In this document: one piece after another, positions 6,849 to 36,010 of the stretch
How positions within the stretch are numbered: the stretch's first letter is position 1
How the letters are laid out: every line of letters begins with the position of its first letter
Source: an uncultured Thiotrichales bacterium
GTDB taxonomy: Bacteria; Pseudomonadota; Gammaproteobacteria; CAIRSR01
Direction of reading: 5' to 3'
Length of the DNA stretch: 40,144 nucleotides
NCBI GenBank assembly: GCA_903824965.1
Contig: CAIJYR010000139.1
Location: forward strand, 1 to 40,144
Notes under the pieces: generated by a model
Seen by the model: only the letters and a program-made list of their open reading frames with translations
The model's database searches: none
Told to the model about the DNA's origin: nothing
Translations under genes and position numbers: made by a program

Positions 6849-6859
6849 CTTTCAGCTCG

Positions 6860-6893
6860 CCCCTCTCCTGAAAGGAGAGGGGTTGGGGAGAGG
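6860..6893. repeat. Interspersed GC hairpin repeat after recB
   Basis: A perfect 10-bp stem (cccctctcct / aggagagggg) with a GAA loop, followed by ttggggagagg, starts 12 bp past the recB stop. The same element recurs at 8924-8957 with the same loop and tail. It may end or stabilise the recB transcript. Confidence 0.85.
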
Positions 6894-6940
6894 TGGATGC
6901 TGTTTTTGAATTGTTTTTGACCAACACCGAGCAGTTACTT

Positions 6941-7010
6941 ATATCTATATCTATATTTGTATTTATCTTTATCTTTATCTTTATCTTGATATTCATTTTA
7001 TATTTATTTC
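6941..7010. repeat. AT-rich microsatellite (TTTATC hexamers)
   Basis: A low-complexity tract with two tatcta-type units and four perfect head-to-tail TTTATC copies (6962-6985), then further tattt/tttat variants. It lies between two GC hairpin repeats in the recB-recD gap. No gene is supported here. Confidence 0.85.
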
Positions 7011-7051
7011 AAAGCAGGAAGATCAACAAGAAAGTCAAAGGAAGAAGATGT

Positions 7052-7070
7052 CCTCTCCTTCCAGGAGAGG
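7052..7070. repeat. GC hairpin repeat upstream of recD
   Basis: An 8-bp stem (cctctcct / aggagagg) with a TCC loop, followed by ggggcaa. It is a shorter copy of the 6860 and 8924 elements, 48 bp before the recD start, so it falls in the recD leader if recB and recD are co-transcribed. Confidence 0.75.
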
Positions 7071-7118
7071 GGCAAACTGAGAGTAAAAATCAACTGATTT
7101 GCAACGAGAACCTTGATC

Positions 7119-8960: not shown

Positions 8961-9072
8961 TTTTCTGGGTTTGACTTGTCTTTTACTTGTCATCCAGTCA
9001 GGATCCAATCAAAGACAGCCCCTTTTCTCTTTTTAATATTCAGTAAAAGATGCTATCCGTTGGAGGTCAATC

Positions 9073-10368
9073 ATGGCTCAAATAGAAGGTTTCAGAATAC
9101 GTAATTTTGGTGCGCTCAAAGATATTACGCTTGGCAGGCTGAGTAGTCACTGGGGAAAGAATTACAGAATACCAATTACACCCCTAACAGTCGTCATAGG
9201 AAAAAATGGTGCTGGCAAGAGCACCTTGTTTGATGCGTTTGGTTTTCTTGCGGACTGTCTTAAATTCGGTGTAGAAGATGCTTGTGATCTTCGAGGTCGT
9301 GGTGGCATTAAAGGAATACGGACGCAAGGAGAAAGAGGCGCAATTGAGTATAATCTAAGCTATAGAGAAGATATGAACGCACGACCTCTTACATATGAAT
9401 TATCAATCGATATTGATGAATTTGATCGCCCATTTGTCTTGCGGGAACGCCTCAGGCAGAGACGCAAAGGACAGAGCTTCGGACAACCGTTTACATTCCT
9501 GATGTTAGAAAAAGGAAAGGGTCTTGCCTGGAAGGGTGAACAAGATGGGAAGAAGATTAATGAAGAGCAAGGTCAATTTGATTTTGACAGCTTTATGGAA
9601 TCCATGAGAAAAGAGAAAGAGGAATCTAAAGAAATAGAGATTGTCGATCTGGAAGATAATCGAAGACTTGGCATTGCAACACTGGGTGCATTAAAACAGC
9701 ATCCAAGGATTTCGGCTTTCCGCAAATTTATTGAGGGATGGCACCTTAGCTACTTTACCCCAGATGCTGCACGAGATTTGCCGCTTGCTGGGCCTCAGCA
9801 ACACCTCAACAGCAAGGGTGATAACCTCGGCAACGTTGTTCAGTTTATGGAGCGCGAACATGGCCCAAAGTTCCGAACTATCTTAAATAAAATCGCCGGA
9901 AAAATTCCAGGAATTGATAAAATCAGCACAGAGAGAATGCAAAATAACCGCTTATTACTGAAGTTCAATGATAAAGGTTTTCAAGATCCCTTTTATGTAC
10001 AACAAATGTCTGACGGGACGCTCAAACTATTTGCTTATCTGTTGTTGATGGAAGATCCAAACCCACCGCCATTCCTGTGCATTGAAGAACCGGAGAATGG
10101 TTTGTACCACAAATTGCTCGAATCGTTGGCCCATGAATTCAGGGAGCACGCAACCGGACGCAAGGGTGGATCGCAGATATTTATCACGACACATCAACCG
10201 TACCTTGTGAACGCACTCTCGCCGGAGGAGGTCTGGATTCTGGAAAAGAACGCGGACGGTTTTGCAACCATTCGGCGTGCCAGTGATGACCCAATCGTAC
10301 AGGGATTGGTCGAGGAAGGTCTTCCATTGGGTGGCCTTTGGTACAGTGATTATCTGGACGCGAGGTAA
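9073..10368 (+). CDS. AAA family ATPase (AAA_21/OLD-like), first gene of a two-gene module
   Basis: The 431-residue ABC-type ATPase has an N-terminal GFRIRNFGALKDITL strand-helix typical of SMC/RecF/OLD-like ATPases. Its motifs are Walker A GKNGAGKST (43-51), a signature-like QMSDGTLKL (311-319), Walker B PFLCIEEPENGL (333-344, Glu338-Glu339) and an H-loop with His374 (ITTHQPYL). A charged, probably helical insert lies at about 140-200. There is no C-terminal Toprim domain in this protein; the next gene, 4 bp away, may supply it. A strong GGAGG (9062-9066) sits 6 bp before the ATG. Codons are AT-richer than in recB or recC (many aaa, gaa, att), which suggests acquisition. Defence or nucleic-acid surveillance is inferred from the pairing, not shown. 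Confidence 0.85.
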   Translation: MAQIEGFRIRNFGALKDITLGRLSSHWGKNYRIPITPLTVVIGKNGAGKSTLFDAFGFLADCLKFGVEDACDLRGRGGIKGIRTQGERGAIEYNLSYREDMNARPLTYELSIDIDEFDRPFVLRERLRQRRKGQSFGQPFTFLMLEKGKGLAWKGEQDGKKINEEQGQFDFDSFMESMRKEKEESKEIEIVDLEDNRRLGIATLGALKQHPRISAFRKFIEGWHLSYFTPDAARDLPLAGPQQHLNSKGDNLGNVVQFMEREHGPKFRTILNKIAGKIPGIDKISTERMQNNRLLLKFNDKGFQDPFYVQQMSDGTLKLFAYLLLMEDPNPPPFLCIEEPENGLYHKLLESLAHEFREHATGRKGGSQIFITTHQPYLVNALSPEEVWILEKNADGFATIRRASDDPIVQGLVEEGLPLGGLWYSDYLDAR

Positions 10369-10372
10369 TCCC

Positions 10373-11026
10373 ATGCACTTTGAGATCATCGTGGAAGATC
10401 AGTCTGGCAAGCAAGCACTCGATATTCTAGTACCAAAGATCGTAGGTTCTGAGCATACCTATAGGATCATTCCGTATAAAGGTATTGGCCATACTCCTAA
10501 AAATCTCAAACCAAAGACGGATGCTAACAAAAGGATTTTGCTTGATCAGCTCCCAAGGTTGCTACGAGGCTTTGGCAAGAGCCTGAAGGAATATCAGAGT
10601 GCGGTTATTGTGGTGTGTGATCTGGACAAAAGGTGTCTGAAAGCCTTCCGAGAAGAATTGTATGCCGTTCTGAATGCTTGTAACCCTAAACCAGAGACTC
10701 GGTTCTGTATCGCAGTGGAAGAATGGGAAGCTTGGTTTCTTGGAGATATTCCCGCAATCAAATCAGCGTACCCAAAGGCAAAGGATAAGGTTCTGGAAAG
10801 TTATAAAAATGATTCCATCTGTGGCACATGGCAAGTTCTTGCAGATGCTGTCTTTCCTGGTGGGTCGAACGTACTGTCAGGCAATGGCTGGCAGGCCATT
10901 GGTTCCGAAAAGCACAAATGGTCTGAGAACATTACCCCGCATATGGACGTGAATAATAATAAATCCCACAGTTTTATTTATTTCCGCGAGAAGCTGACTG
11001 ACCTGTTGCGTATAGAGAAAGAATAA
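10373..11026 (+). CDS. DUF4276-like protein with Toprim-like motifs, partner of the AAA ATPase
   Basis: The 217-residue protein starts at an ATG 4 bp after the ATPase stop; the reading frame stays open further upstream only because it overlaps that gene. The features look like a Toprim fold: an N-terminal strand with Glu8 (FEIIVEDQSG), then a hydrophobic strand ending in an Asp-x-Asp pair (VIVVCDLDKR, Asp83/Asp85). A Glu-rich AVEEWEAWFLGD segment (114-125) follows, as in DUF4276 proteins. Toprim domains bind metal and cut or join nucleic acid in OLD nucleases, topoisomerases and primases. Together with the preceding ATPase it could form a split OLD/PARIS/AbiL-like pair; which type, if any, cannot be told by eye. 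It ends 9 bp from the convergent ubiX. Confidence 0.7.
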   Translation: MHFEIIVEDQSGKQALDILVPKIVGSEHTYRIIPYKGIGHTPKNLKPKTDANKRILLDQLPRLLRGFGKSLKEYQSAVIVVCDLDKRCLKAFREELYAVLNACNPKPETRFCIAVEEWEAWFLGDIPAIKSAYPKAKDKVLESYKNDSICGTWQVLADAVFPGGSNVLSGNGWQAIGSEKHKWSENITPHMDVNNNKSHSFIYFREKLTDLLRIEKE

Positions 11027-11035
11027 ATAAAAACA

Positions 11036-11644
11036 TCATTCCATACCCCAGCGAGGCAACAGTTGGTGCGTGACGCCCAGGTGATCCAAAATACGCGCCA
11101 CCACAAAATCAACGACCTCGGACACGGAAGTTGGTCGGTGATAAAAGCCTGGATTGGGTGGAAGAATTACAACGCCGAGGCGTGCAAGACGCACCATGTT
11201 TTCGAGGTGAATGACCGAGAAAGGTGTCTCCCGTGGCACAAGAATCAGGCGGCGATTCTCTTTGATACAAACATCCGCAGCACGCTCGATGAGGTTATCC
11301 GATCCGCCCATGGCAATGGCCGCCAAAGTCCCCATGCTGCATGGACAAATAACCATGGCCGACGGTGGATTGGAACCAGAAGCCAGCGGTGATGCCCAAT
11401 CTTGGGGATGAAAGACACGCAGTTGGTCGGATGCTGCGTGAAAGTGTTCTGTCAGAAAGCGTGCTGTTTCGCGTGGCAACTCAGGCAGTTCGATCGTCGT
11501 CTCCATGGAGAACACCGTCCTTGCCGCTGGAGAGATCAATAGGTGAACGGATCGTCCTGCGTGGAGCAAACACTCCAAGAGACGCAGACCATAGGGAATG
11601 CCAGAAGCACCCGTATAGGCAAGCGCAATGGATTCAGTAGACAT
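11036..11644 (-). CDS. ubiX: Flavin prenyltransferase UbiX
   Basis: UbiX joins a dimethylallyl group to FMN to make prenylated FMN, the cofactor of the decarboxylase UbiD in ubiquinone synthesis. The 202-residue protein has the family signatures: ALAYTGASGIPYGLRLLE at the N-terminus, CPCSMGTLAAIAMGGSDNLIERAADV in the middle, and LVPRETPFSVIHLENM near 137-152. Length is normal. The ATG at 11644 starts the conserved strand after six residues. The gene is on the same strand as recC but 352 bp away, across a repeat-rich gap, so it probably has its own promoter. It converges on the DUF4276-like gene. No ubiD is in the window. Confidence 0.95.
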   Translation of the reverse strand: MSTESIALAYTGASGIPYGLRLLECLLHAGRSVHLLISPAARTVFSMETTIELPELPRETARFLTEHFHAASDQLRVFHPQDWASPLASGSNPPSAMVICPCSMGTLAAIAMGGSDNLIERAADVCIKENRRLILVPRETPFSVIHLENMVRLARLGVVILPPNPGFYHRPTSVSEVVDFVVARILDHLGVTHQLLPRWGME

Positions 11645-11667
11645 GATGGCTTTCCTGAGCGTGCAAC

Positions 11668-11685
11668 TCTCCGATGAATCGGAGA
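11668..11685 (-). promoter_or_regulatory. Hairpin in the ubiX leader
   Basis: A 7-bp perfect stem (tctccga/tcggaga) with a TGAA loop lies 24 bp before the ubiX ATG. It would sit in the 5' untranslated region. A similar CTCCG...CGGAG stem occurs ahead of efp (21999-22018). The role is unknown. Confidence 0.35.
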
Positions 11686-11833
11686 TTGAGTTCTAGAAGG
11701 GCTGATGCGAAATACAAAAACAGCTTTTGACTGAGTATTAAAAAAATAAGATGTTGACTTTGATTTGATTCTCATTCTGCAAGACAAGTCACAAGCAGTC
11801 CCCTACCCCTCCCCACCCCCGCCCTTTTCCCTC

Positions 11834-11965
11834 CCGTATGCACACATCTTTTTCGAGCGTGCTCTATCAGATTGAACAATAAAGACAATTCTGATGTGCC
11901 CGAACGAATAACCTTGCGATTTTTCTCTGGCATAATCAATGGGTTATAAAGATGCGTGCATACGG
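11834..11965. repeat. Inverted repeat pair between ubiX and recC
   Basis: The 17-mer ccgtatgcacacatctt (11834-11850) recurs in inverted orientation at 11949-11965 with one mismatch. C-rich or G-rich hairpin-repeat sequence lies on the outside of both arms (11800-11833 and 11968-11986). About 98 bp of AT-richer DNA separates the arms. The layout suits a small non-autonomous element or a paired extragenic palindrome. No gene is seen in the 11645-11996 gap. Confidence 0.6.
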
Positions 11966-11967
11966 TA

Positions 11968-11986
11968 GCCCTTTCAGGGAAGGGGC
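11968..11986 (-). terminator. Hairpin downstream of recC
   Basis: An 8-bp stem (gccctttc / gaaggggc, one T-G pair) with an AGG loop lies 10 bp past the recC stop. It has no T tract on the recC strand, so it is only a candidate terminator. It also looks like a worn copy of the GC hairpin repeat. Confidence 0.4.
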
Positions 11987-11996
11987 ATGTCTAAAA

Positions 11997-14900
11997 TCAA
12001 AGGCGTGAATCCTGAAGATGTCGCAGAAGCGGATCGAATACCATTCTGGATATTGAACAGAACTCTTCGTCCAAGGGGTCTGCCACACCACGCAAGGCCA
12101 ACTGGTAACTAAGGTTGGCGCTTTCGCTACGGTTATAGTCACGATCGTTGATCCATTTCTCCTGCGCCTTTCTAAGAGTGCCACTGCTGGTACAATACGC
12201 CCACGCACTCTTCGGAAAAAAATGCACTGGTTTCAGCAAACCACTGCGATACACAGCCAGCAAGTTACCCAGTTCTTCGCGGGCATTTTCACAAGTCTTG
12301 AAAGAAAAACAACCATCACGAGAATGCCATTGGGTGGTTGCCGTACTCGGTGATTGAACGGCACACAAAAACAAATGGGCAAACCAACCCGCCAAATAAT
12401 CCATGGGTCGCGTGTCGTCATAACGATAACGGACTAGACCACTGGCACGTACATCGACCAGATCGCCGACCAGTTGCCAAGACTCGCCTTCTATATCAAA
12501 TGGCAGCACCTGACGAAGGGGAGCCAATATGGGGGAAGACAACTCGCTCGCAAGTCGATCGGCAAATGACTGGATCTCGACCAATTCTTCTTCTAGCAGC
12601 CGCTGACCAAAAGCACCCGTCGGAAACTCATTGCCAGCCGCTGCTAGAGCAAACAAATCAGGCATGTTGTCACAACGCGCCAACAACGTGGGCAACAATC
12701 GTTGTGCCATGGCTTGGCGGTTTGGGTATTCTCCCAAAAACGGCTCATCGTCCTGAAGCAATTCTTCGGATGCCGCCAAGGTGATGTTCAACCGTTGTCG
12801 AAGCACAACCCTGCAAGGATTACGAAAGAACCGCTCCAATTGTTCCAGGCTTACGCTTCGTGCTTCTTCTGGAGGCGGTGGCAAGGGATCTGTAAAGAAC
12901 GGAATCTGTGCGGTATCCCCCACCTCCCTTTCCGTTGCCGTTTCTTCTTCCTCGTTTTTGTCTCTCAGAGGGGGCGTGATGGATCGCTTTTGCTGCGATG
13001 CTTCTAACCGTTGGCGCAGGGCATCGCAATATTCTGCATGGTAACTGTGCAACCGAGCATCGTCTGCGCCCGTGAAATACACCGAGGAAAAAGCCTGAAG
13101 CGGATGCGCTACGATCAAGCGTCGGCGTGCACGTACCATGGCCCCGTCCAGACGCTCGCCCTCCTGCGGAAAAGCAGTCGCGGCCGCCAAATAATCCAGC
13201 AATTCTGCCACCAGCACCGAAGGCGGCATAGAGCGGTTGTCTCGAATGCTGCGTCCTCGGTAGCTGATATGAAAAGCATCGCGTGCCGACAACAGAAGAT
13301 CAAGAAAGAGGTTGCGCTCGTCCGTTCGGCGCTGTCGATCGCCCCTTCGTGGCGCACAGGCCATTAGGTCAAATTCGGCCGGATATTGCGTCCCTGGAAA
13401 GGTGGCATCGTCCATACCGATCACGCAAATGACCCGATAAGAGAGACTGCGTAGACTCGCAATCGAAGAAAAAGTCACCGTTCCTGTCGGTATACCGCCT
13501 CGTATCGGGTCGCTCCACTCATCCACGAGCGCCTGACGAATCAGTTCCAAAGGCAACGCAGATCCCGTACCACCTTCGACCATGTCCCGACACAGCCGAG
13601 CAATCGCATCACGCACCGCCCGCAAATCCTCCATCCACGCCAAAGAATCGGGCACAAAGTGATCCAATGCGTCGTTCAGCGAACGCTGCCACTCTTCCGG
13701 CCGCAACGGACGAGACCACGCACAACGCACGCGGTTCAATTGATCCAAAAAGCGCCAGAAGCGACCGAGTGATATGGCATCCAAGCCTTCGGGATTGCCC
13801 GCAGGCAGACAACCGTGGAGGATCGTATCTGTTGCGCGATCACCGAGTGCGTAGGACAAAAACAACCGATCCATGCCGTCCGAAAAACTATGACGCTCAC
13901 TTTTGGGCAATCCCAAAGCAACGCGCTGTTCTGCATCCCATCCCCAACAGATCCCTGACTGTTGGATCCAACGGTGGATCTGATCGAGCGCCGCACCGTC
14001 CAACCCATAGCGTTCGGCCACGGGGTCTTGCTGTAACAGTGCAAAGACAGCACTCGCCACAAAACGGCCACCACACACAGTCAGCAACGTGTCCATCAAA
14101 TGCGCCACCGGATTCACCTGCGTCTGCGGCTGGCCTGTGATGGTGTAGGGAATGCGTCGCATGGTGGGCGCAGTACCAAACACCATGTCGATGACGGGTG
14201 CCGCTTTGATCAGGTTGGGCGTCACCACCAAAATGTCTTGGGGGCGCGGCGGATCGTCACTCGCCAAAAGATCCAACAACCGGTCGTGTAGGACTTCCAG
14301 TTCCCGTGTCATAGAGTGACAGACATGGACTTCTAGGCTTCGATCTCCCTCCGAAGGCTGCACACTGCTTGGGGCTAGCTCCACCATGTTCAGGATGGCA
14401 TTCTGTACATGGGCAAGCAGGGTGCCACGCTCGTTCGGAAGAAACGCACTGCCGTCTTCTACGATAATGCCCTCGTCTGAAAACAATAGATCCAGATAGG
14501 CTTTGGTGGGTTGGCCCCACGAAGCCAGCAAGGTATTGCCGACTTCGTAGAAATGATCTCCGGTGTCGTGGCGGTTCGCCAAATAATGGAGCCGCTTAGG
14601 ATCGACGATCTCAAACCAATATTCTTGGCAGGGATTGAGGGCATAGACCCGAATATCTACCCACTGGGAGAGGTGTCGGAGAATGTCTAAATAAAGGGGC
14701 GGTATTGTTGGCAGACAGAACAAATGGGCCACGCTGGGTAGGCCGTATTGCGAAGTGGCGTTTGCACCCAACGCGGCCACCTTCTCGAAAAAGGCCACCG
14801 AGGGATGTTGCCGATGGATGCCGAGTTCGCCTGTGATCTGCCGCCACAGAGCAGCTTGCCAGGCTTCATCCTCACGTTTGTCTGGTGCGAGTTCTGCGGG

Positions 14901-15362
14901 TATGCGCTGCCCGTCAGACCACGCCGACAACCAGTCGGGTCGGTACGTAATATAATGCTCGAATACCTGCGTCACACGCTTCGCAAGATCCAAACGCATG
15001 AGCGGATCGGCCTGCTGTAAGTAACGCGCCAACCGAGGATGATCGGCGGTCAACGCACGATCCCCGAACTGCGCGTAGACCCGCCAGGCCAGCAGGTTGG
15101 GCGAAAAGGGCGAACGCGCTTGAACAGGCACCACCTGTGCGATGCACGTCCACAACCATTCGGCCAAGAAAGAAAACGCTACATTGGCACAAATCCCCAC
15201 GTGATCAGCGCACGCAAGCGTAACGCGACGTCGCAAGGCAGCACTGGGTACAATGACCGAGTGTGGTGCAAACACATCGATCTGCCCAGCATCGATTGCC
15301 AACTGTTCCAGCAAGCGATCCAACAAGAACTCAACGCGATTCGACAGCGTCAGGTGGAACAT
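11997..15362 (-). CDS. recC: Exodeoxyribonuclease V subunit gamma (RecC)
   Basis: RecC is the scaffold and Chi-reading subunit of RecBCD. The 1121-residue length matches the family. The N-terminus (MFHLTLSNRVEFLLDRLLEQL) and conserved blocks such as FCLPTIPPLYLDILRHLSQWVDIRVYALNPCQEYW, split here by helicase-like regions, are RecC-typical. CVIGMDDATFPGTQYPAEFDLM is the usual signature of the inactive second helicase half. No Walker A lysine motif is present, as expected. It starts 15 bp after the PP2C gene stop, so it seems to be the last gene of a signalling operon, and it lies on the opposite strand from recB and recD with two unrelated genes plus ubiX between. Such a split order means recC expression need not follow recBD. 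Confidence 0.93.
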   Translation of the reverse strand: MFHLTLSNRVEFLLDRLLEQLAIDAGQIDVFAPHSVIVPSAALRRRVTLACADHVGICANVAFSFLAEWLWTCIAQVVPVQARSPFSPNLLAWRVYAQFGDRALTADHPRLARYLQQADPLMRLDLAKRVTQVFEHYITYRPDWLSAWSDGQRIPAELAPDKREDEAWQAALWRQITGELGIHRQHPSVAFFEKVAALGANATSQYGLPSVAHLFCLPTIPPLYLDILRHLSQWVDIRVYALNPCQEYWFEIVDPKRLHYLANRHDTGDHFYEVGNTLLASWGQPTKAYLDLLFSDEGIIVEDGSAFLPNERGTLLAHVQNAILNMVELAPSSVQPSEGDRSLEVHVCHSMTRELEVLHDRLLDLLASDDPPRPQDILVVTPNLIKAAPVIDMVFGTAPTMRRIPYTITGQPQTQVNPVAHLMDTLLTVCGGRFVASAVFALLQQDPVAERYGLDGAALDQIHRWIQQSGICWGWDAEQRVALGLPKSERHSFSDGMDRLFLSYALGDRATDTILHGCLPAGNPEGLDAISLGRFWRFLDQLNRVRCAWSRPLRPEEWQRSLNDALDHFVPDSLAWMEDLRAVRDAIARLCRDMVEGGTGSALPLELIRQALVDEWSDPIRGGIPTGTVTFSSIASLRSLSYRVICVIGMDDATFPGTQYPAEFDLMACAPRRGDRQRRTDERNLFLDLLLSARDAFHISYRGRSIRDNRSMPPSVLVAELLDYLAAATAFPQEGERLDGAMVRARRRLIVAHPLQAFSSVYFTGADDARLHSYHAEYCDALRQRLEASQQKRSITPPLRDKNEEEETATEREVGDTAQIPFFTDPLPPPPEEARSVSLEQLERFFRNPCRVVLRQRLNITLAASEELLQDDEPFLGEYPNRQAMAQRLLPTLLARCDNMPDLFALAAAGNEFPTGAFGQRLLEEELVEIQSFADRLASELSSPILAPLRQVLPFDIEGESWQLVGDLVDVRASGLVRYRYDDTRPMDYLAGWFAHLFLCAVQSPSTATTQWHSRDGCFSFKTCENAREELGNLLAVYRSGLLKPVHFFPKSAWAYCTSSGTLRKAQEKWINDRDYNRSESANLSYQLALRGVADPLDEEFCSISRMVFDPLLRHLQDSRL

Positions 15363-18295: not shown

Positions 18296-20416
18296 ATGAA
18301 CATGAAGATCGGTACGCGGCTTTGGGTTGGCTTTGGTCTTGTGCTTGCGATGTTGATCTGGGTGGTTTGGGTGGGTGCCCATGGCCTTGATATCGTGCAA
18401 GACAAAGTCGATCTGGTGGTAAAAGAGATTGTTCCTGGCACAGTGCTCGCCAATAAGATTGGCAATCAAATCGATGACACAAGCCGATTCTCACGTGACA
18501 CACTGATCCTAGAGAATCCAGAAAGAGTAAAACAAGCAATCGACTCTATTCTAGAAACTCGTCAAAGCACAAATCAGACGCTGGATACAATAGAAAGTAT
18601 TGTCAAAAGCGCAGAAGGCAAGAAAGTCATTACAAAGATGCGCAATGACCGCAATGCGTACCTTGCTGCACAGGATCGGTTTCTGGGAATGGTTCAGAAT
18701 GGCCAGCTTGAGGACGCTGCTAAACAATTGTACGGAGAAGTGACACAGCTTCAGAAGCCCTACGAGGAAGATGGGGATGCGCTCATTGCCCATCAACAGA
18801 AAGCAATGAATCAAGCCGGAGAGGATGCAACGGCGATCCAAGATAGGGGCATTCTGTTGTTGTTCAGCGTGGGAGGGGTAGCGTTCGTGTTGGCTGTAGG
18901 CATGGGGTTCTGGATTGGGATGAGCGTAACCCAACCTCTGCGTAAAGCGTTGGTCATCGTAGAGCAATTGGGTCGCGGTGAGATCCTCGATCCTGTGCAA
19001 GAAACCTGGCAAGGGGAGTTCGACGGAATCCGAAAGAGCCTCAATGACGCTAGCCTTTCCATCCATACCTTGATATCCGACATGAATTACATGTCCTCGG
19101 AACACGAGAAGGGTGACATTGATGTAAAAATCGACTCGACCTACTTTCAGGGAAGCTTTAAGACCATGGCCGAAGGGGTGAATGGTATGGTATTGGGTCA
19201 TATTGACGTGAAGAAAAAAGCCATGGCTTGCGTCAAAGCCTTTGGGGAGGGCCATTTTTCTGCGCCGATAGAGCGGTTTCCGGGCAAGAAGGTTTTTATC
19301 AACGACATCATCGAACTGGTGCGCGGCAATCTGAATGCGGTCATGGCGGAAACCAATACCATCATCCAAGCCGCTGCAGAAGGAAAGCTCAACCAGCGTG
19401 CCAACACTGATCAATTCCAGGGTGGCTGGAAGCAACTGGTCACGGGTTTTAATAGAACCTTGGATAACATCGTCCTACCTCTGAACGAGAGCATTCTGGT
19501 TCTCACGGAACTGGAGAAAGGGGATCTCACACAGCGTGTGCACGGTGATTATCAAGGTCAGCTCAAAGATCTAAAGGACACGGTCAACAACACCATTGCA
19601 AAACTCACACAAGTCATTGTGGAAGTGCGTAGTACAGCAGAGGTATTAGCGAGTGCTTCGGTGGAAGTGAATACAGCGGCACAATCGATGTCACAGGCAT
19701 CGAGCACACAGGCCGCCAGTGTCGAAGAAACCAGCGCAGCCGTAGAACAAATGTCTGCCTCGATTGCCCACAACACCAGCAATGCGAAAACGACCGATCA
19801 AATGGCTACCCATGCAGCACAAGAAGCCAGCATGGGCGGAGAAGCTGTCAAAGAGACCGTGACGGCCATGAAAGTGATTGCACAAAAGATCGGAATCATC
19901 GATGACATTGCGTACCAGACCAATTTGTTGGCCCTCAACGCAGCCATTGAGGCTGCACGTGCGGGTGAACAAGGCAAAGGGTTTGCGGTAGTTGCGTCGG
20001 AGGTACGTAAACTGGCCGAACGCAGCCAGGTTGCCGCACAAGAGATTGGAGAAATTGCAACAAACAGCGTAGAATTGGCTGAGAAAGCAGGTGCATTATT
20101 AAACACCCTCGTACCCCACATCAAAAAGACAGCCGATCTGGTACAGGAAATTGCCGCTGGCTCAAAAGAGCAATCATCGGGTGCTGCACAGATCAATAGG
20201 GCGATGAATCAGTTGAATCAATTAACCCAACAGGGTTCCAGTGCTTCGGAAGAACTGGCGGCGACGGCAGAGGAAATGAGCGGTCAGGCAGAACAGTTGC
20301 AAGAGAGAATGGCATTCTTTAGGGTGGAGTCCGTCAGCGACGCGCGTTCAGCCACAGTGCAAAAGAAAAGAGAACCAACCCATCCCCCTATGCCTTTTCG
20401 CAGAAGCTCCCATTAA
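18296..20416 (+). CDS. Methyl-accepting chemotaxis protein with extended HAMP relay
   Basis: The 706-residue receptor has a first membrane helix (about 9-29), a periplasmic four-helix-bundle type region (30-185) and a second helix (186-209). A long cytoplasmic part follows. HAMP-like units with GD/GE-x-hydrophobic motifs repeat at about 226-258, 271-302, 317-350, 360-395 and 406-440, so several HAMP units seem to be chained before the signalling domain. The CheA/CheW-binding hairpin tip is canonical ([22 protein letters not shown], split around 537-558, then [16 protein letters not shown]). The C-terminus (FRRSSH) lacks a CheR-binding NWETF-type pentapeptide. The ligand is unknown. It converges on epmA with a 4-bp gap and has no che genes beside it. 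With fliK in the same window, it supports flagellar motility. Confidence 0.93.
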
Positions 20417-23296: not shown

Positions 23297-26200
23297 TCAG
23301 GCCGTTTCCTCAGCACAACGACTCTCTGGGAGGATGGGTTTGACCTGACCCCAGCCAAATCCTTCTTTTTGAAAGCTTTTAATCAATTTGTCCCAGAACA
23401 CAGCCCCTACCTTCGTGCATACCGGTTTACCATCCGGACTGCCCTTGACGTAGGTACGCACACGATAGACGGCCATCTGGGCCTCTCCTACCATTTGTAG
23501 GCCAAGCAGCGTAACGGCAGCGGGCGGGGTATCCCCTCTGAGCATCACGTGCGGATTGTCGGCAATGGCTCCTTTGATGAACTTCACCACTTTGTCCTGA
23601 TCCAGGGCTGGATCAACCGATACCTTGAGATCACAGAGAAAACCGGATCGGGTCGTGGACAGGTTGTGAACCTCCGATTCGGAAAGCTTGCCATTGGGAA
23701 TCGTCACGATATGGCCCTGTTCGTGCTCAATTTGTGTAGCACGCCAGGTAATATCCACCACCTTGCCCGTGAGGGGGGCCCCTCTTGCGATGCTCAGCCG
23801 CACCTTGTCACCAATCGCAAAGGGCTTCTCAACGTTCAGAATGATGCCTGACAAAACATTTGCGATATTGTCTTTAACGGCAATACCAATGATCATCGCA
23901 CTGAGTCCGGTCGTGGCCAGCAGGCCAGTGACCGATCCCTCGAATACATAGGACACCACCCCAAAGATTGCAGCGACAAATACAACACTCGCTGCCAATA
24001 AGCGCATAATGCCAGGCACTTTGCGCTTTGTTCTTTCCTCTAAAGGTATCCAGAGGAAGCGATCCATTGCGATCACAATCAGCAAGGCAGGCAGTAACCA
24101 CGTAGCAACATTATAAGTCGTCCAGACAATATCAGCGATACCAGCACTGGCATATTGCACAGTCTTGTCGAGCACCAGATTGCCGAACGATCCAAGAAAC
24201 AAGGGCCAGCAGACGAGACGTAAGAAAAAGGTCTGCACTCTCCAAAATGACCTTCCATATTTTCTGTCCAGAAAGAACGCGAGAAGCGCACCGATCCCTG
24301 AAAAAATGGCAACATACCAGAAATCTTTACTGGGAATAATGTCACGCGCCCGAATCAGATCAGGCTTGAGGAGAATGCCAAGCTCGATGTGCGAAAAGTC
24401 AGGCGCAGGCCGCCCAAAGCCAACATAATTCGGATCGCCCTCCGAGCTACGTGGCACAATGTCCTGAGAAATCCATGCCCTATCGATCACCCACCCACTG
24501 ACGCCGTTCAGTACGTTGGTGCGCGTCAGGATATTGACCATTGGATCGGCTCTGTCAGTGCCGGAATGCAAGAATTGACTAATGGCAAACAAAGGTTTGA
24601 GCAACAAAGCAGAAATGCCTTCTCCTTTGCTTTTTGTTGCAGCGGCAGCCGCATTAGAGGCTTGTAGCAGCGTATGGAGGGTAGTGTCACGCGTCATCCC
24701 CATACCGAGGATGTCCGTCACATACATGACATTGTGACGACTCAATAAACGATGGTGAAAACTAACCCCCATGATCAACGTATCGAAAGCACGCGGTGCG
24801 CTAGTAAAGTTCATGTAAAACTTACCATGCACGCGATAAGCTCGATAGGTAATGTCTTGTGTCTTGTCTTCGTGGTCTGGTTTGTCTAGACGGATGGGTT
24901 TGACAGCGTTGGAAAACACAATATCCTGAGGTTCAAAATCACCACGCCAGCGGAACCAGATCAAGAAGTCACCCTCAACCACCTTGCCTCTATCGTCGAA
25001 CGATGAAACACTGATGGGTTGAATGCCCGTGTACACAACATTGGTACGGTACATGAACCGATCGTTGACATAAATGGCACGGCCTTCCATAAATTGTTGT
25101 AATAAATTGCTTAAGCCTTCTTCACGAATTGGGATCAACTGCGTGGTTGTAGAAATCAAATCAACCCCATTAAATACCCCAATAAGAGGTGGACTGAGTT
25201 CTCTGTCTTTCGGGTTCAGAAGAACAGGGCCATTGATGCCCTGTGCTGGTTTGGCAGCAGCAGGCGAGGTTCCTGATAATTGCTGAAAAAGATGTGCTTG
25301 CAGCGATTCATCCGTTGCATCTCCTGCACCGATGCCGATTTGCAGCGCACTCACTACGCTCTGCACAGCATCATTCGCGTAGGCAGCAACCCAATCAGGA
25401 GAATGCCGGAAACGACCGATGAAGTCCGTCCTGAAATTTTGGGCACCCTCCCCTGCGACATCGAACAACATGGGGCTTGCGAGCAAAGTACCATTGAGCG
25501 CAGCCTCCAGAGAGCTTGGCCCGTTCCACTCTTTGCGCAACGTGTTGATGAACAGATCCGTGGCACAACTGCGTGTGCAAGCAATGGGATTGTGCAGACC
25601 CGTCAACCGCAGCCGAATGAGTGTACGCGCACTCGTGGTGGCATCCGCGAGGATCAAGATCGTGCCTGGCAGCTTTCCCTCGTTGAGTTGTTGTGCGGCT
25701 ACAGTCACTTGCGTGGCTAGGTTTGGGCTGTCTGGCGTCACAGGCCAGCGGTAGACCACCTTTGTGCCGAAGCGTTGCATGGTTTCATCAAAGGCATTGG
25801 CGAGGGCTTCGCCGCGTGGGGAATCCTCGTACAGGATGTGCACCGTTTTTTCGCCAACCACATTGCGTAGGTAGTTGGCAAGGAAGCGAGCTTCGTAATC
25901 TTCCGCAACCAGCAGACGACTTGCGGTTGCTTCAGGCAGTGGTGTCCGTTGCGATTGATCAGAGGCTAAGGTAATGACCCCCATTTTGCCTGCCGCATAG
26001 AGAGGCTCTGCGGGCGTGAGCGTGGCCAAGTGGGTGTGACCGATGACGGCAACCGCCCCCGAGGCTACCGCTGCTGCCGCCGCTTTTTTGGCTTGTTCCG
26101 GATCGTTGGCATCATCAAAGGTAAGAATGCTGAGTTCACGACCCCCAATGCCCCCCGCACGGTTGATATCAACCGCCTTCAGGGTCATTCCATCCAACAT

Positions 26201-26410
26201 GGCTGTGCCAAGATCAGCGTGATCACCGCTCAAGGGCGCAACCAAAGCAATGTGCAAAGGCGGCAACTTACTTTCTTTGACCGTAAAAACATAGAAACCA
26301 ATCGCCACGACAATGGCAACGAGAAAGGCCGCTGCAAGAATGACATAAAAAAGCCTGACCTTCGATAGCTTCGATGCATCAGGAAAGAAACGTTTCAATA
26401 CAGCAATCAT
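23297..26410 (-). CDS. Fusion of periplasmic binding domain, ligand-gated-channel-like domain and MscS channel
   Basis: This 1037-residue membrane protein has three recognisable parts. After a membrane anchor (about 20-43), residues 51-420 look like a LivJ-type periplasmic binding protein ([37 protein letters not shown]). Residues about 435-690 resemble the extracellular domain of bacterial pentameric ligand-gated channels: [32 protein letters not shown] and [16 protein letters not shown], the last in the position of the Cys-loop FD motif. Helices follow at about 698-714, 723-747, 762-782 and 800-821. An MscS core comes last: a Gly/Ala-rich pore helix (828-858), PFAIGDKV, the beta domain with [12 protein letters not shown], and an alpha/beta C-terminus. 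GGAG lies 6 bp before the ATG. I infer a chemically gated MscS-type channel. The first and last parts are secure; the middle is by resemblance only. Confidence 0.82.
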
Positions 26411-26482: not shown

Positions 26483-27403
26483 TTAATTTGCTTTCTTGAC
26501 GTCCTGTAGATACTGATCAAATATCTGACCATAGCGACCATTGGCATGTAATGCAGCAATTCCCTTATTAAAATCATCTACCAGTGCTTGGTGATGACAA
26601 GCTATTTTGAAATCGACGTTTATCTCTACGGGGACTTCGAGCACTGTTTCGTTGTAGTCATCCGGTCGATCACGCACCAGGGCATCACGAATAAAATGGA
26701 ACATGGTACGATCGATCACCAGCACTTGAACATTACCCCGTAAGAGCAAAGCTACTTGACTCGATCGATTTTCATGTTCTAAATAATTTTGTGCCTTTCC
26801 GATAACGCGCCTAAAATCAGCACCGAGATAATCTCTCGCCAAACTAAAGGCTTCCACAGTCTTGCCTGCGAGATCCTCGTAACTCTTTATGACAATATGA
26901 TCTTTCTTGAGGGTAAATGGCGTATAATGGTATGTTACGACCGGAACAGAAAAATAACTCTTCGATTTTAGCGATAACTCCGAGGATACCGTGGAAACAC
27001 ATTCAACTCCAAAACGCTCTGAGTCGTATTTGCTTTGGCGATGTGCAACTTCCATGAAATTAACGCACTTTCCTGTCAATCCGAAGGCATCATTAATGAT
27101 ATCTCGCTCAATGCCGTCTTTGCTGGAACCATTAAAATACGGTGGTTTGTTGTCTGGCACGGCAATCGTCACCGCGCCATCCGCGCAGGTGGTCGTTTTG
27201 TCCACGGGGGGTTTATAGTCAGTGATTTTCGGGACAGTCGGAAAACCGTGCTCGGAGCAGGCTGCGATCGAAAACACACACACCACAAAGGCTACCTGAC
27301 AGATCGCATACGCAACGCGCCTCCACCGATAAGGTAGTCGATAGGACAGTGCACGGATACACCTTGGTTTGCGTCCAGAACGGCTGATTGTGCTTTCGGT
27401 CAT
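26483..27403 (-). CDS. Family 3 extracellular solute-binding lipoprotein
   Basis: The 306-residue protein has a long basic N-terminus, then a hydrophobic segment (about 33-48) ending in a lipobox-like SIAAC with Cys49. It is probably a membrane-tethered periplasmic lipoprotein. The mature part reads as an SBP_bac_3 fold: VTIAVPDNKPPYFNG, DGIERDIINDAFGLTG, YEDLAGKTVEAFSLARDY and the C-terminal NKGIAALHANGRYGQIFDQYL. These proteins bind amino acids or similar small solutes. No ABC permease or ATPase is near. Instead the gene overlaps the upstream coiled-coil gene by ATGA and is followed 72 bp later by the channel fusion. It may hand ligand to that channel. The ligand cannot be read from sequence. 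Confidence 0.85.
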   Translation of the reverse strand: MTESTISRSGRKPRCIRALSYRLPYRWRRVAYAICQVAFVVCVFSIAACSEHGFPTVPKITDYKPPVDKTTTCADGAVTIAVPDNKPPYFNGSSKDGIERDIINDAFGLTGKCVNFMEVAHRQSKYDSERFGVECVSTVSSELSLKSKSYFSVPVVTYHYTPFTLKKDHIVIKSYEDLAGKTVEAFSLARDYLGADFRRVIGKAQNYLEHENRSSQVALLLRGNVQVLVIDRTMFHFIRDALVRDRPDDYNETVLEVPVEINVDFKIACHHQALVDDFNKGIAALHANGRYGQIFDQYLQDVKKAN

Positions 27404-27948
27404 CGCGGAGACATCATATTCTGCATATAGTTAAAGGGAGAGCTGAACGAGGATGCGCCCCGACCAATGTCGTAGGTCATCTGGTTCAGTTGAAGATTCA
27501 TCCCATTTACGTTCCCAGAAATAATCCGGACATTGCCAGTCAATTGATCGAGATTGATACGCATGACGTCCATATCGTGGGCCATGTTCGCCTGAATTTC
27601 CTTGATATTTCCCTGCATTTGTGTCATGTGGTTGTCCATGTCCATAATGGTGGCGCTCATGTCGATCATGTACGTATTCAGTTCCCTGAGCGTAGACTTC
27701 ATCCCATCGACGCTCTTCGTGACGTGGATGAACTGATCACGCATTTTGCCAACATCATTTGCCATGCTATTGACTTGGTGCGACATGTTGCCGACATACA
27801 GGGTCATGTGCCCCATGTCCTGCCCCATCATGACCATCATCTTGAGCATCGCAAAACCCATGGAACCGAAGCCAATGGCCAAGATACCCGCGATCATCGG
27901 CCTTTTTTTCCAGAATGGGAGGCTTGGTGCTTGTGCGTCTGTCAACAT
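27400..27948 (-). CDS. Met-rich membrane-anchored coiled-coil protein
   Basis: The 182-residue protein has a short cytoplasmic start, one membrane helix (about 17-40, MIAGILAIGFGSMGFAML) and then a long predicted coiled coil of about 130 residues. Met is exceptionally common: 28 of 182 residues, many at what look like core heptad positions (NMSHQVNSMANDVGKM, MIDMSATIMDMDNHMTQM). No enzyme motif was found and no named family is recognised. The stop codon overlaps the start of the solute-binding lipoprotein gene (ATGA), so the two are translationally coupled. It could oligomerise in the periplasm as an accessory or tether for the channel. A metal-binding role through Met is possible but unsupported. 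Confidence 0.75.
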   Translation of the reverse strand: MLTDAQAPSLPFWKKRPMIAGILAIGFGSMGFAMLKMMVMMGQDMGHMTLYVGNMSHQVNSMANDVGKMRDQFIHVTKSVDGMKSTLRELNTYMIDMSATIMDMDNHMTQMQGNIKEIQANMAHDMDVMRINLDQLTGNVRIISGNVNGMNLQLNQMTYDIGRGASSFSSPFNYMQNMMSPR

Positions 27949-31203: not shown

Positions 31204-33450
31204 ATGCGCATGGCTTTCAGATTCATTGTACCCCTTCTCATCATCCTTGGATGCACCGCCTGGGGCACCTCTCCTCTTGTCGGGCAGTTAATGCACAGTT
31301 GGCTTCTCAGCGATGTCGAGTTACGGTCGCAACTGGTTTTTCACTCAATTCATGATACCGTGGACGTCATGATCTCGACCAAGGATGACGTCAAAATGGA
31401 CGAATTATTCCGCAGTATTGCGAGCGATGAAAGACTGTTGGCGCTTGGTTTATGCACATCGAATAGAATGTTGATGCACCGCTCACCAGAATGGCCCAAG
31501 ATCTTAGCCTGTCCAGCTCCTGAACAAAGGTTTGTGGTGGAACACCTAGCAGCCGGGCCGGTGTTGGCGGCGTCTTTTGCGCTTAGCTCTACGGAGAGCG
31601 ACCAACGGTATCTCGTCATCGTGCATGACCTTACCTTCATCGAACGGCGTAGCTCCACGCTTGAGAACTATTTGTCTGTATTCCTAGGCGTTCTGGGGGT
31701 TGTGGTGGCTTTGATCACCGCCCTCGTTGCCCAATTGACGCTGAGGGGCTGGATTCAAGTGATGTACAAAAGCTTGACGACCCCAGACCAAGGCCATGCG
31801 CACAAAAAATTGCTAGAACCCGAGATCGCACCCCTGGTACGCGAGGTACGCAAGATGTTGCGTGGCCTCGATGCGCCCAAAAGCGCAGCGGATGCCATTC
31901 GCATCGATTGGAACCCGGAAAGTCTACGCACCTTGCTCCGCAACGAATTACCGGAAGCACAAGTCATCGTGGTCTCCAACCGTGAGCCTTACATCCACCA
32001 CGAAGAGGAGGACGGCAGTATTGTCCTCCAGCGCCCCGCGAGTGGGTTGGTTACTGCCCTTGAGCCTATTTGTCGGGCGTGTGGTGGAACTTGGATCGCC
32101 CATGGCAGTGGATCAGCCGATCGGCGTACCGTCGATGCCAACGACCGACTCGCAGTGCCGCCAGGTGCTCCGACCTACACGTTACGGAGACTATGGCTGT
32201 CCGACGAAGAACAAGACGGCTATTATTATGGTCTCGCCAACGCAGGATTGTGGCCGCTTTGTCACATCGCCTTCGTTCGGCCTGTGTTCCGTACTGAGGA
32301 TTGGGAACAGTATGTTGCGGTGAATCGCAAATTCGCAGACGCAGTGGTAGCCGAAGCCAAAACCCAGAACCCCGTTCTGTTGGTGCAGGACTACCACTTT
32401 GCCCTCTTGCCGCGCATGGTACGCGAACGCCTACCAAACGCGACCATCATCACCTTTTGGCACATCCCTTGGCCTAATCCTGAAGCCTTCAGCATTTGCC
32501 CCTGGCGTGAGGAAATTTTATGGGGCATGTTAGGCAGTTCGATTTTAGGCTTCCACACGCGGTTCCATTGTCTGAACTTCTTAGAATCTGTAGACCGTTT
32601 TCTAGAATGCCACATTGATCGTGAGCAGAGCATTGTCAGTACCGGATCCAGTACCACCGTAGTACGCCCCTATCCAATCTCAATCGAGTGGCCCCCGACG
32701 GCTTTGGCCAATCAATGTGCGGTGCCTGTATGTCGTGCGATGATCCGCCAGCAATATGGTTTGGCTGAAAACACCCTTCTGGCGGTTGGCGTCGAGCGAT
32801 TTGATTATACCAAGGGCATCGCGGAACGCTTCCACGCTGTCGCACATCTGCTGGAACATCATCCCGAATGGATTGGTCGCTTCACTTTCTTGCAGATTGC
32901 AGCACCCACGCGTAGTCAACTTTCCGCGTACCGCAATACCCAGTTGGAAGCTGAGGTAGTCACTCGTACCATCAATGAACGTTTCGGTACCGCTGGATGG
33001 GTACCGATTATCCTGGTGGCCAAACATCATGATCCTGAGGCAGTTTTCACACTGTTTCGGGCTGCCGATCTCTGTATGGTCTCCAGCCTACACGATGGCA
33101 TGAATCTGGTCGCCAAAGAATTTGTCGCTGCCCGTGACGATGAAGACGGTGTTCTCATCCTGAGTACCTTCGCGGGGGCATCGCGGGAATTATTAGAGGC
33201 GTTAATCGTCAACCCCTATGACTGCCATGCCATGGGGGATGCCCTCCACCGTGGTCTTACCATGCCCCTTGAACATCGGCGTGAACGAATGCGGTTGATG
33301 CGTGAAATGGTGAGTGAACGCAATATTTATTTTTGGGCAGGCCGCATGTTGCTTGACGCTTCCCGGATGCGTAAGCGTCATCGAATCGAGGCCGATCTCA
33401 CTTTCGTCGAAACCTCGTCTAGCAACCGTCGGCGAGGAGGAACAGTATGA
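31204..33450 (+). CDS. otsA: Trehalose-6-phosphate synthase with membrane sensor-like N-terminus
   Basis: OtsA makes trehalose-6-phosphate from UDP-glucose and glucose-6-phosphate. The GT20 domain occupies about 250-740. It has [70 protein letters not shown] and [17 protein letters not shown]. The first 250 residues are unusual: a membrane helix (about 7-29), an extracytoplasmic region of some 120 residues, a second helix (about 154-178) and a linker. This is the layout of a membrane receptor, and it suggests that synthase activity is tied to a periplasmic or envelope signal. The stop overlaps the otsB start (ATGA). The operon continues with otsB, a GH15 enzyme and a sodium/proton antiporter. 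Confidence 0.93.
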
Positions 33451-34211
33451 CGTTGACGTTAGAGACTCCCACGATTGAACAGTGTTATAACTGGGCATTG
33501 TTTCTAGACATTGACGGAACCTTGGTGGACATCGCACCGACGCCGGACAGCGTGACCGTGTTGCCTACACTGCCAACACTGTTGAACGATCTTCGTCAGA
33601 CGCTTGGCGGCGCATTGGCTTTGATTAGCGGTCGCTCGATGATCGAGATCGACTACCTATTTCCTGGAAGACTCGACGCAGCCGGAACCCACGGTGTCGA
33701 ATGGCGCCATGCAGGAACGATGCTTCCTGAGGATGGCAACCATCATGATGCGATGAGCAACCTCATGCCTGAGATTGAGGATCGGGTGCGCAAGCTCCCT
33801 GGTTTGCTGATCGAAAAAAAATCGCACTCGTTTGCACTGCATTACCGTCAGCATCCTGAGCGTGAATCCGATGCATGGTCTTTAGCGGGATCCGCTTTAC
33901 AAGCATTAGGGGCTGACTTTCGTTTGCTCTTCGGCAAGGGCGTAGTTGAAATCGTCGCAGCGAATGCCGACAAGGGCATGGCCATCAAACGTTTTATGGC
34001 CCTACCACCTTATAGAGGACGGATCCCTGTTTTCGTTGGCGACGATGTCACAGACGAATGTGGATTTCAGGTTGTGAACCAGATGGGTGGCGTGTCTATT
34101 CGGGTGGGTGATACATCTTTTTCACTTGCACGATTCAAGATTGGCACCCCGCCGGAATTGCGTGCGTGGCTCTCTGCCATTGCAATACATTTGGAGACAA
34201 CACGACCGTGA
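33447..34211 (+). CDS. otsB: Trehalose-6-phosphate phosphatase
   Basis: OtsB removes phosphate from trehalose-6-phosphate to give trehalose. The 254-residue HAD-family enzyme has motif I FLDIDGTLVDIAP with the nucleophile Asp, motif II ALISGRSM, the cap region with GTHGVEWR, and motif IV VFVGDDVTDECGF. A strong GAGGAGG lies 6 bp before the ATG, and the start overlaps the otsA stop. The stop overlaps the GTG of the next gene (GTGA), so three genes are translationally coupled. Confidence 0.95.
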   Translation: MTLTLETPTIEQCYNWALFLDIDGTLVDIAPTPDSVTVLPTLPTLLNDLRQTLGGALALISGRSMIEIDYLFPGRLDAAGTHGVEWRHAGTMLPEDGNHHDAMSNLMPEIEDRVRKLPGLLIEKKSHSFALHYRQHPERESDAWSLAGSALQALGADFRLLFGKGVVEIVAANADKGMAIKRFMALPPYRGRIPVFVGDDVTDECGFQVVNQMGGVSIRVGDTSFSLARFKIGTPPELRAWLSAIAIHLETTRP

Positions 34212-36010
34212 GTACACTCGAACTGGGCGTCATCGGCAATGGTACTGTCGCTGCGCTGATTGACGTCAATGCCACCATCGTGTGGTGGGGGTTTCCGCGT
34301 TTTGATGGAGATCCTGTCTTTTATGCGTTGCTCAATGGCGCAGATCCGATCCGTCCTGAAGATCCGGAAAATGGTGGTTACTATGCCGTGGAACTGATTG
34401 GGTGCCATCAGCGTCAGCAACGCTACCTACCCAATTCGGCGGTACTGGAGACTCGCTTAGAAGACGCAAATGGCAATGCGGTGGAAATCATTGACTTTGC
34501 CCCTCGGTTCACACAATTCGAACGCATGTTCCGTCCGCCTATGTTGGTGCGTCGCATTGTGCCTGTGCAGGGACGCCCGCGAATCCGCATCCGGGTTAGA
34601 CCACGTTTCGATTATGGCACGTTGAATCCGCAACTCACACTGGGATCCAACCATATTCGCTTTCAGAGCCAATCGGGTGCGCTGCGCCTCACCACAACTG
34701 CGCCTTTGTCCTATGTGGTCGAAGAAACGGCATTCGTTGTCGAACACGACATTACCTCGTTTCTCGGATCTGATGAAGGACTCAACGCTGGTATCGAGGA
34801 CACTGCGCGGGTATTCCTGGAGCGTACTCTGTATCGCTGGCGAACCTGGGTGCGCTCGCTGTCGATTCCCTTCGACTGGCAGGAGGCGGTCATTCGCGCT
34901 GCGATCACCTTAAAGATCTGCAACTATGAAGAAACAGGGGCCATCGTCGCCGCATTGACCACGTCGATTCCCGAAGCACCGTTTACCCAGCGTACATGGG
35001 ATTATCGCTTCTGCTGGTTACGCGACGCCTATTTTGTTGTCCATGCACTCAATCGCTTGGGTACAACGCGGACGATGGAGGAATACCTTGGATATATCAC
35101 GAACATCGTCAGTGAAAGCGATGAAGAGGTACTGAAGCCCTGTTATGCCATTACCCGGCACACCGATCTGGAGGAGCGCATCGCTGCAAGCCTCGCAGGC
35201 TATCGGGGGATGGGGCCAGTCCGTATCGGCAATCAAGCACATTTGCAGATCCAGAATGATGTCTACGGTAGCGTGATCCTGGCCGCTACCCATGCATTCT
35301 TCGATCGCCGTTTGCCGTTGACGGGTGACATTGTGCTGTTCGAGCGGCTTGAGATCCTGGGACAACGCGCCCTTGCTGCTTATGACAAACCGGATGCAGG
35401 CCCATGGGAATTGAGGGCGTTTTCTGCCATTCACACTTTCTCAGCAGTGATGTGTTGGGCAGGGTGCGACCGCTTATCTAAAATTGCCGCTTCTTTGGGT
35501 TTGTCCGATCGAAAAACCCTGTGGCGACAACGGGCAGATCAATTGCATGCCGTTATTTCTCGTCGTGCCTGGAACGCTGAACTCGGTAGTTTTGTTGCGA
35601 CCTTTGAGGGCAACACACTCGATGCAACACTGCTGCTTCTGCACGAACTGAATTTTCTTGCCACAAACGATCCCCGTTTTGAGAGTACCGTTCTCGCTGT
35701 TGGTCGTACACTCAAACGCGGGGACTTGTTGTTGCGCTACGCTACCGAGGATGATTTTGGGTTTCCAGAGACCTCTTTCACAATCTGTACTTTCTGGTAC
35801 ATCGATGCTTTGGCTGCGCTGGGACGGAAAAAGGAAGCGCGTGCTTTGTTCGAGACCATGTTGAAACGACGCTCTGCCCTCGGTCTCCTCTCTGAGGATA
35901 TCCATCCGCAGACAGGAGAATTGTGGGGAAACTATCCTCAAACCTATTCCATGGTTGGCTTAATCAACTGTGCTATGCGTCTCTCTCGCGATTGGGAGGA
36001 AGCATTCTGA
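34208..36010 (+). CDS. Glycoside hydrolase family 15 (glucoamylase/trehalase-like)
   Basis: The 600-residue protein starts at a GTG overlapping the otsB stop; an upstream in-frame ATG inside otsB is less likely. It has the GH15 layout: an N-terminal beta-sandwich (ELGVIGNGTVAALIDVNATIVWW) and then an alpha/alpha-barrel with TWDYRFCWLRDAYF and GPVRIGNQAHLQIQNDVYG. The catalytic pair appears intact: Glu401 in GPWELR and Glu563 in LSEDIHPQTGELWGNYPQ. GH15 enzymes split alpha-glucosides such as malto-oligosaccharides or trehalose. Its place right after otsAB suggests trehalose turnover, but substrate preference cannot be read here. It has no signal peptide, so it acts in the cytoplasm. Confidence 0.92.
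   Translation: MSTLELGVIGNGTVAALIDVNATIVWWGFPRFDGDPVFYALLNGADPIRPEDPENGGYYAVELIGCHQRQQRYLPNSAVLETRLEDANGNAVEIIDFAPRFTQFERMFRPPMLVRRIVPVQGRPRIRIRVRPRFDYGTLNPQLTLGSNHIRFQSQSGALRLTTTAPLSYVVEETAFVVEHDITSFLGSDEGLNAGIEDTARVFLERTLYRWRTWVRSLSIPFDWQEAVIRAAITLKICNYEETGAIVAALTTSIPEAPFTQRTWDYRFCWLRDAYFVVHALNRLGTTRTMEEYLGYITNIVSESDEEVLKPCYAITRHTDLEERIAASLAGYRGMGPVRIGNQAHLQIQNDVYGSVILAATHAFFDRRLPLTGDIVLFERLEILGQRALAAYDKPDAGPWELRAFSAIHTFSAVMCWAGCDRLSKIAASLGLSDRKTLWRQRADQLHAVISRRAWNAELGSFVATFEGNTLDATLLLLHELNFLATNDPRFESTVLAVGRTLKRGDLLLRYATEDDFGFPETSFTICTFWYIDALAALGRKKEARALFETMLKRRSALGLLSEDIHPQTGELWGNYPQTYSMVGLINCAMRLSRDWEEAF

Follow-up and report, generated by a model that had tools for sequence, protein, structure and literature searches.

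A putative natural channel chimera: a periplasmic-binding domain and a nicotinic-type receptor domain joined to an MscS-type pore

We analysed a 40,144-nucleotide stretch of DNA (the window) encoding a 1037-residue protein in which the sensory half of one channel class appears to have been placed on the pore of another. In this protein, a membrane anchor is followed by a LivJ-type periplasmic-binding domain, by a middle domain of the kind found outside the membrane in pentameric ligand-gated channels (pLGICs), and by a five-helix channel of the unrelated, tension-gated YnaI/MscS type. According to the reading that we prefer, the sensor half of a pLGIC fused to a periplasmic-binding protein (PBP) would have exchanged its own four-helix pore for a five-helix YnaI/MscS channel, apparently once. 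We are highly confident of the natural-chimera architecture and of its descent from PBP-fused pLGICs. To the whole statement, which includes a ligand-modulated mechanism for the MscS channel, we assign a probability of roughly two in three.

Domain layout and the channel part

The gene occupies the minus strand (Table 1), a detail absent from a preliminary description of this DNA, which had correctly read the 1037 codons as a single uninterrupted frame. The periplasmic-binding domain placed there at residues 51-420 was found by Pfam as well (Peripla_BP_6 at 52-374, E 3.2e-25). The two-lobe fold of type I periplasmic-binding proteins was also recovered by Foldseek (LivJ 4gnr, TM-score 0.90 by target length), and a phmmer search of the PDB aligned the N-terminal part of the protein to amino-acid-binding proteins.

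At the opposite end, residues 701-919 align to E. coli YnaI (phmmer against the PDB), and the Pfam domain MS_channel_2nd was detected at 849-918 (E 3.5e-18). This domain lies within the MscS part as first delimited (approximately 828-1020), but the channel extends further towards the N-terminus, with helices starting at residue 696. The MscS hallmark, a TM3 pore helix followed by a cytoplasmic beta domain, is present according to Pfam, the YnaI alignment and the AlphaFold model. The M1-M4 four-helix pore of pLGICs is absent, and the YnaI/MscS membrane domain stands in its place.

The full-length AlphaFold model (24 rows, mean pLDDT 77.9) comprises the anchor helix (residues 17-44), the two-lobe domain, a beta-rich domain, five helices and the vestibule domains of MscS. 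The membrane topology predicted by this computation places the sensors in the periplasm and, because five crossings are predicted after the periplasmic segment, gives the vestibule the cytoplasmic position that it has in MscS.

Table 1. Features of the channel gene and of the two genes upstream of it (window coordinates; residues refer to the 1037-aa protein)
Feature	Coordinates	Strand	Size, basis or remark
Whole gene: anchor, type I periplasmic-binding domain, pLGIC-type extracellular domain, YnaI/MscS-type channel	23297..26410	(-)	1037 aa
Hydrophobic helix at the N-terminus (residues 17-44), probably an uncleaved signal anchor	26279..26362	(-)	AlphaFold helix and sequence
LivJ-type periplasmic-binding domain, residues ~51-415	25166..26260	(-)	Peripla_BP_6 E 3.2e-25; Foldseek LivJ 4gnr
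pLGIC-type extracellular (ligand-binding) domain, residues ~419-690	24341..25156	(-)	AF2 and Foldseek; hhalign E 1.4e-42
Degenerate Pro-loop, residues 537-548, [12 protein letters not shown]	24767..24802	(-)	P-x-D/E-x-Q/H lost
Helical insertion within the extracellular domain, residues ~574-620	24551..24691	(-)	Low confidence
Arg689, junction of receptor domain and TM1	24344..24346	(-)	Kept in 22/24 full-length MscS-type rows
Four predicted TM helices ahead of the pore helix: 696-718, 723-753, 756-794, 800-821	23948..24325	(-)	phmmer alignment to YnaI
MscS TM3-like pore helix, residues 827-860	23831..23932	(-)	
MscS cytoplasmic beta domain and alpha/beta domain, residues ~849-1015	23366..23866	(-)	MS_channel_2nd 849-918; AF2
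Upstream gene, probable lipoprotein, type II periplasmic-binding (SBP_bac_3) superfamily	26483..27403	(-)	306 aa; SBP_bac_3 E 2e-4, below Pfam curated cut-off
Upstream gene overlapping the lipoprotein gene: membrane-anchored coiled-coil protein	27400..27948	(-)	182 aa

The pore helix and the beta domain together are the most strongly conserved part. Across 24 full-length members the glycines and alanines of this helix do not vary, and neither does the MscS beta domain; the mean pairwise identity of the MscS types reaches 55% for the pore helix and beta domain, compared with 39% for the receptor domain, 30% for the binding domain and 24% for the C-terminal alpha/beta domain. This pattern would fit a sensor that varies, a transducer that is conserved and a pore that is conserved strongly.

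The receptor-type domain, its relatives and the exchange of the pore

Pfam gave no match for residues 420-690 of the window protein. An AlphaFold model of the middle domain (residues 417-701, mean pLDDT 81.9), built from an alignment of MscS-type sequences only, with no pentameric channel included, was compared with the PDB by Foldseek. Among the matches listed, 50/50 were extracellular domains of nicotinic, AChBP, GABA-A or 5-HT3 type, the best of them having an E-value of 8.4e-9 and a probability of 1.00. The TM-scores were moderate (up to ~0.6 by target length) and the rmsd values (5-13 A) large because of loops and the helical insertion, which occurs in the clade of the window protein and in some relatives, and is absent from the clade carrying a cyclic-nucleotide-binding domain (CNBD).

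In profile comparisons (hhalign), the MscS-type middle domain (30 sequences) matched PBP-fused pLGICs with E 1.4e-42 over 215 columns, and stand-alone pLGICs with E 1.2e-16. The profile of the PBP-fused four-helix group in turn retrieved from the PDB GLIC-based chimeras (1.6e-26) and GLIC itself (~2e-24), while that of the stand-alone four-helix group retrieved ELIC (4.3e-19); both the GLIC and the ELIC matches extend over the receptor and four-helix domains. By these profiles, the relatives of PBP-middle-four-helix and middle-four-helix order are pentameric ligand-gated channels. A nine-row MscS-type middle-domain profile compared directly with PDB sequences found no pLGIC. The sequence link to pLGICs is therefore transitive, passing through these intermediates, and the fold link is direct. 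The original identification of the middle region as the extracellular beta-sandwich of a ligand-gated channel thus gains support from the fold search with this region alone and from the chain of profiles, in which the resemblance persists. All three motifs quoted for the protein are present; one of them, [10 protein letters not shown], is not, however, an intact pLGIC strand motif but a degenerate remnant of the Cys/Pro loop.

Relatives were gathered by whole-genome searches of ~770 sampled genomes and one Verrucomicrobiales MAG. They display three architectures: PBP-middle-MscS (in some cases with a C-terminal CNBD), PBP-middle-four helices, and middle-four helices alone. The three-part order noted in the preliminary description recurs in 27 genomes of two phyla (some with several copies, a few of the copies being truncated) and in Azospirillum, where nine plasmid records contain a near full-length match to the middle and channel part. 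Judged from the sequences, such an architecture is far beyond chance. Full-length homologues are 70% and 61% identical in family members and 25% identical in the Verrucomicrobiales MAG; those of the Azospirillum megaplasmids share ~40-43% identity over the middle and channel parts, and all three domains were confirmed in them. In Azospirillum sp. B510 the homologue bears the annotation ABC transporter substrate-binding protein.

The C-terminal cNMP_binding domain is absent from the window protein. Its carriers are L029, L030, L032, L033, L036, L037, L085 and L086, with Pfam-positive matches in L029, L030, L033, L036 and L037; these are four-domain channels, with periplasmic and cytoplasmic ligand domains on one MscS pore. 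In one protein of this type (L036:3250-7047), an insertion of ~100 mostly hydrophobic residues separates the receptor domain from the MscS helices and may form extra transmembrane helices. Genome G404 has, besides MscS-type copies, two adjacent and overlapping same-strand genes (L111:2418-5925), one for a stand-alone and the other for a PBP-fused pLGIC, so that receptors of all three architectures coexist.

In a tree of the binding and receptor domains, all 28 MscS-type rows fall on one side of a branch (support 81/91), beside the PBP-fused four-helix channels. When the receptor-domain tree was rooted on stand-alone pLGICs, the MscS type formed one clade (100/98), and the PBP-fused four-helix group required two changes. 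The simplest reading of these topologies is that the MscS types are nested within the PBP-fused pLGICs, which is consistent with a single pore swap. The CNBD would, most simply, have been gained or lost in one sub-branch, whose support is only 55/91. Several rows have long branches, and the details within the trees are therefore unsure.

The contact between receptor and pore carries a further mark of such an exchange. Both the P-x-[DE]-x-[QH] loop, which in pLGICs contacts the pore domain, and the arginine preceding M1 occur in 29/29 four-helix relatives in which the region is present. Among the MscS types, the loop motif was found in 0/30 (in two further sequences this region is missing through truncation or masking), and 1/32 has the arginine; the Azospirillum sequences likewise have no loop motif. 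Arg689, which most full-length MscS types keep (Table 1), is a different arginine from the pre-M1 one. The acidic residue of this loop and a basic residue before the membrane domain were suggested to be universal and involved in gating (Tasneem et al., PMC549065). Core residues of the receptor domain (W485, F531, D566, W640 and S673 in the window numbering) are kept in MscS and four-helix types alike. Since the core has been retained and the coupling motif has disappeared, the fold has been preserved and the old coupling surface lost, as expected if coupling was rebuilt.

Two other explanations of the architecture were considered. The middle domain could be an unrelated beta-sandwich spacer that came to resemble a receptor by convergence, as might be argued from the missing Pfam and PDB sequence matches; against this stand the profile E-values of 1.4e-42 and 1.2e-16 to pLGICs, and the fact that the binding, receptor and membrane domains follow one another in the same order as in PBP-fused pLGICs and are nested among them in the trees. 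We rejected convergence, which the profile matches and the receptor-domain tree make very improbable. The genome of the window protein is in 265 contigs, which might raise the suspicion that assembly or gene prediction had fused two genes. The chance of this is negligible, and we discarded it as well: an identical fusion is encoded in 27 genomes, in the single-contig complete genome G734, and on plasmids of Azospirillum sp. B510 and A. brasilense Sp7.

Ligand pocket, neighbouring genes and the proposed mechanism

In LivJ, Ser79 and Thr102 grip the amino-acid head group. The corresponding positions are replaced and variable in the clade of the window protein, and largely kept in the CNBD clade. 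These residues are not a requirement for every type I binding protein; their variation suggests that ligands have changed, and the window clade may bind something other than an amino acid, or may bind its ligand less strongly. We did not adopt a branched-chain amino acid as the ligand, key pocket residues being replaced in this clade.

The SBP_bac_3-type lipoprotein encoded upstream is a likely partner of the channel. Both upstream genes are conserved beside the channel gene in the related genome L003 (56% identity for the lipoprotein, 64% for the coiled-coil protein, the latter in the same position). The L070 and L089 copies likewise have a binding-protein gene ahead of them, of the SBP_bac_3 and the ABC_sub_bind type, respectively; an association with binding-protein genes has been reported likewise for pLGICs (Tasneem et al., PMC549065). 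In many same-phylum relatives, as in Azospirillum sp. B510, the channel gene is instead followed by type I secretion genes (ABC, HlyD, TolC/OEP), close to which lie genes of cadherin-like or VCBS giant adhesins; in B510 the channel and ABC genes overlap by four bases. This neighbourhood can be seen at L121:6765-14221 (Azospirillum sp. B510 pAB510b) and in L116, L117 and L120.

The window itself contains several other gene groups. An osmolyte locus ~5 kb from the channel (31204-36010, plus strand) carries trehalose-6-phosphate synthase-type (GT20) and trehalase-like GH15 genes, and near the channel gene there is a gene (18296-20416, plus strand) for a methyl-accepting chemotaxis protein whose domains include 4HB_MCP_1 and several of the HAMP type. 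RecB/RecD/RecC-like genes are located at 3183-15362 (UvrD-type 3183-6848, RecD-like 7113-8960 and, in opposite orientation, RecC 11997-15362); an AAA_21 ATPase gene (9073-10368) interrupts the series.

In the mechanism that we propose, the binding domain would close on a small molecule in the periplasm, and the receptor-type beta-sandwich domains, arranged as a ring atop the pore, would relay the change to the first transmembrane helices. The MscS pore would then open, or its tension threshold for opening would shift. The MscS relatives in the PDB have mostly seven chains or multiples of seven. As pLGICs assemble from five subunits and MscS proteins from seven, one of the two has to change if a continuous ring is to run through both. 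In crystals, isolated GLIC extracellular domains reportedly formed hexamers, and ring size may therefore be flexible; our literature search found no relevant paper on non-pentameric GLIC extracellular domains. Ligand dependence, the direction of gating, ring formation and heptameric assembly are what we infer for this protein.

The fold and profile evidence bears out the first description of the protein as the sensing part of one channel class on the pore of another, and the binding-protein genes directly upstream in G000, G001, L070 and L089 count in favour of a ligand-modulated channel. The replaced LivJ head-group residues, the mismatch of pentamer and heptamer, the lack of a PDB sequence match for the receptor domain of the MscS type, and the large rmsd values of the Foldseek matches count against it. 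The strong conservation of the pore and beta domain and the wide variation of the pocket positions within the clade would also suit a channel gated by tension only, whose two periplasmic domains merely assemble, localise or brake it, for instance through contacts with the cell wall or secretion machinery; the many members that reside in type I secretion/adhesin loci could conceivably have a structural role there. We nevertheless consider this rather unlikely, as the family has kept the binding-protein fold complete, with the domain order known from PBP-fused pLGICs, and stand-alone binding-protein genes adjoin several copies. It is also improbable that the protein is a solute receptor signalling by conformational change or through partners, with an MscS part that conducts little or no current. 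The association with secretion and signalling genes, and the signal integration suggested by a CNBD at the cytoplasmic end in one clade, agree with such a role, but the invariance of the pore-helix glycines and alanines and of the beta domain in 24 full-length members would be unexpected without a pore.

The ligand-modulated channel can be extended to a broader picture, which we offer tentatively and at somewhat less than even odds. A nicotinic-type ring derived from a pentamer would drive a heptameric MscS pore via a rebuilt interface; one clade would in addition be controlled by cyclic nucleotides from inside; and in Azospirillum and its kin the channel would control, or be controlled by, the type I secretion of giant adhesins.

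Comparison with known systems

The closest known proteins are the PBP-fused pLGICs, described since 2004 (ART-LGIC with PBP-I, PMC549065). They share with the window protein an N-terminal type I binding domain followed by a nicotinic-type ligand-binding domain, both homologous, as well as nearby binding-protein genes. They differ in retaining the Pro-loop, the pre-M1 arginine and a pore of four helices, whereas the pore of the present protein is MscS; bacterial members, according to Tasneem et al. (PMC549065), preserve the core of ligand-binding domain and four transmembrane helices. DeCLIC (PMC9897478) is a bacterial pLGIC with an additional N-terminal modulatory module, but its extra domains are jelly-roll lobes and its pore is an ordinary four-helix pentameric one.

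YnaI and other small channels of the MscS family share the five-helix membrane part, the TM3 pore helix, and, on the cytoplasmic side, a beta and an alpha/beta domain. YnaI lacks a periplasmic sensor, whereas the window protein carries ~690 extra N-terminal residues. The bCNG channels (MscS plus CNBD) resemble one clade of the present family in their C-terminal cNMP_binding domain, which the window protein does not have; to our knowledge, bCNG proteins are devoid of periplasmic-binding and receptor domains. In ionotropic glutamate receptors and GluR0, a periplasmic-binding-protein sensor has been set on a foreign pore; that pore is K+-channel-like, unlike the one described here, and there is no nicotinic-type domain. 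Among open-licence PMC papers, we found no description of MscS joined to periplasmic-binding or receptor domains.

The receptor domain and pore of pLGICs are usually treated as one core, and here the receptor half sits on an unrelated pore. This provides a natural test of the role of the coupling loop, of a nicotinic-type ring under sevenfold symmetry, and of the chemical opening of MscS pores. Relatives occur in many bacteria, and the homologues in cultured Azospirillum, such as the laboratory strain A. brasilense Sp7, make the coupling of sensors and pores across channel families testable. The parts, namely PBP-fused pLGICs, MscS and bCNG channels, were already known; what would be new here is the transplantation of a receptor domain between two unrelated channel superfamilies.
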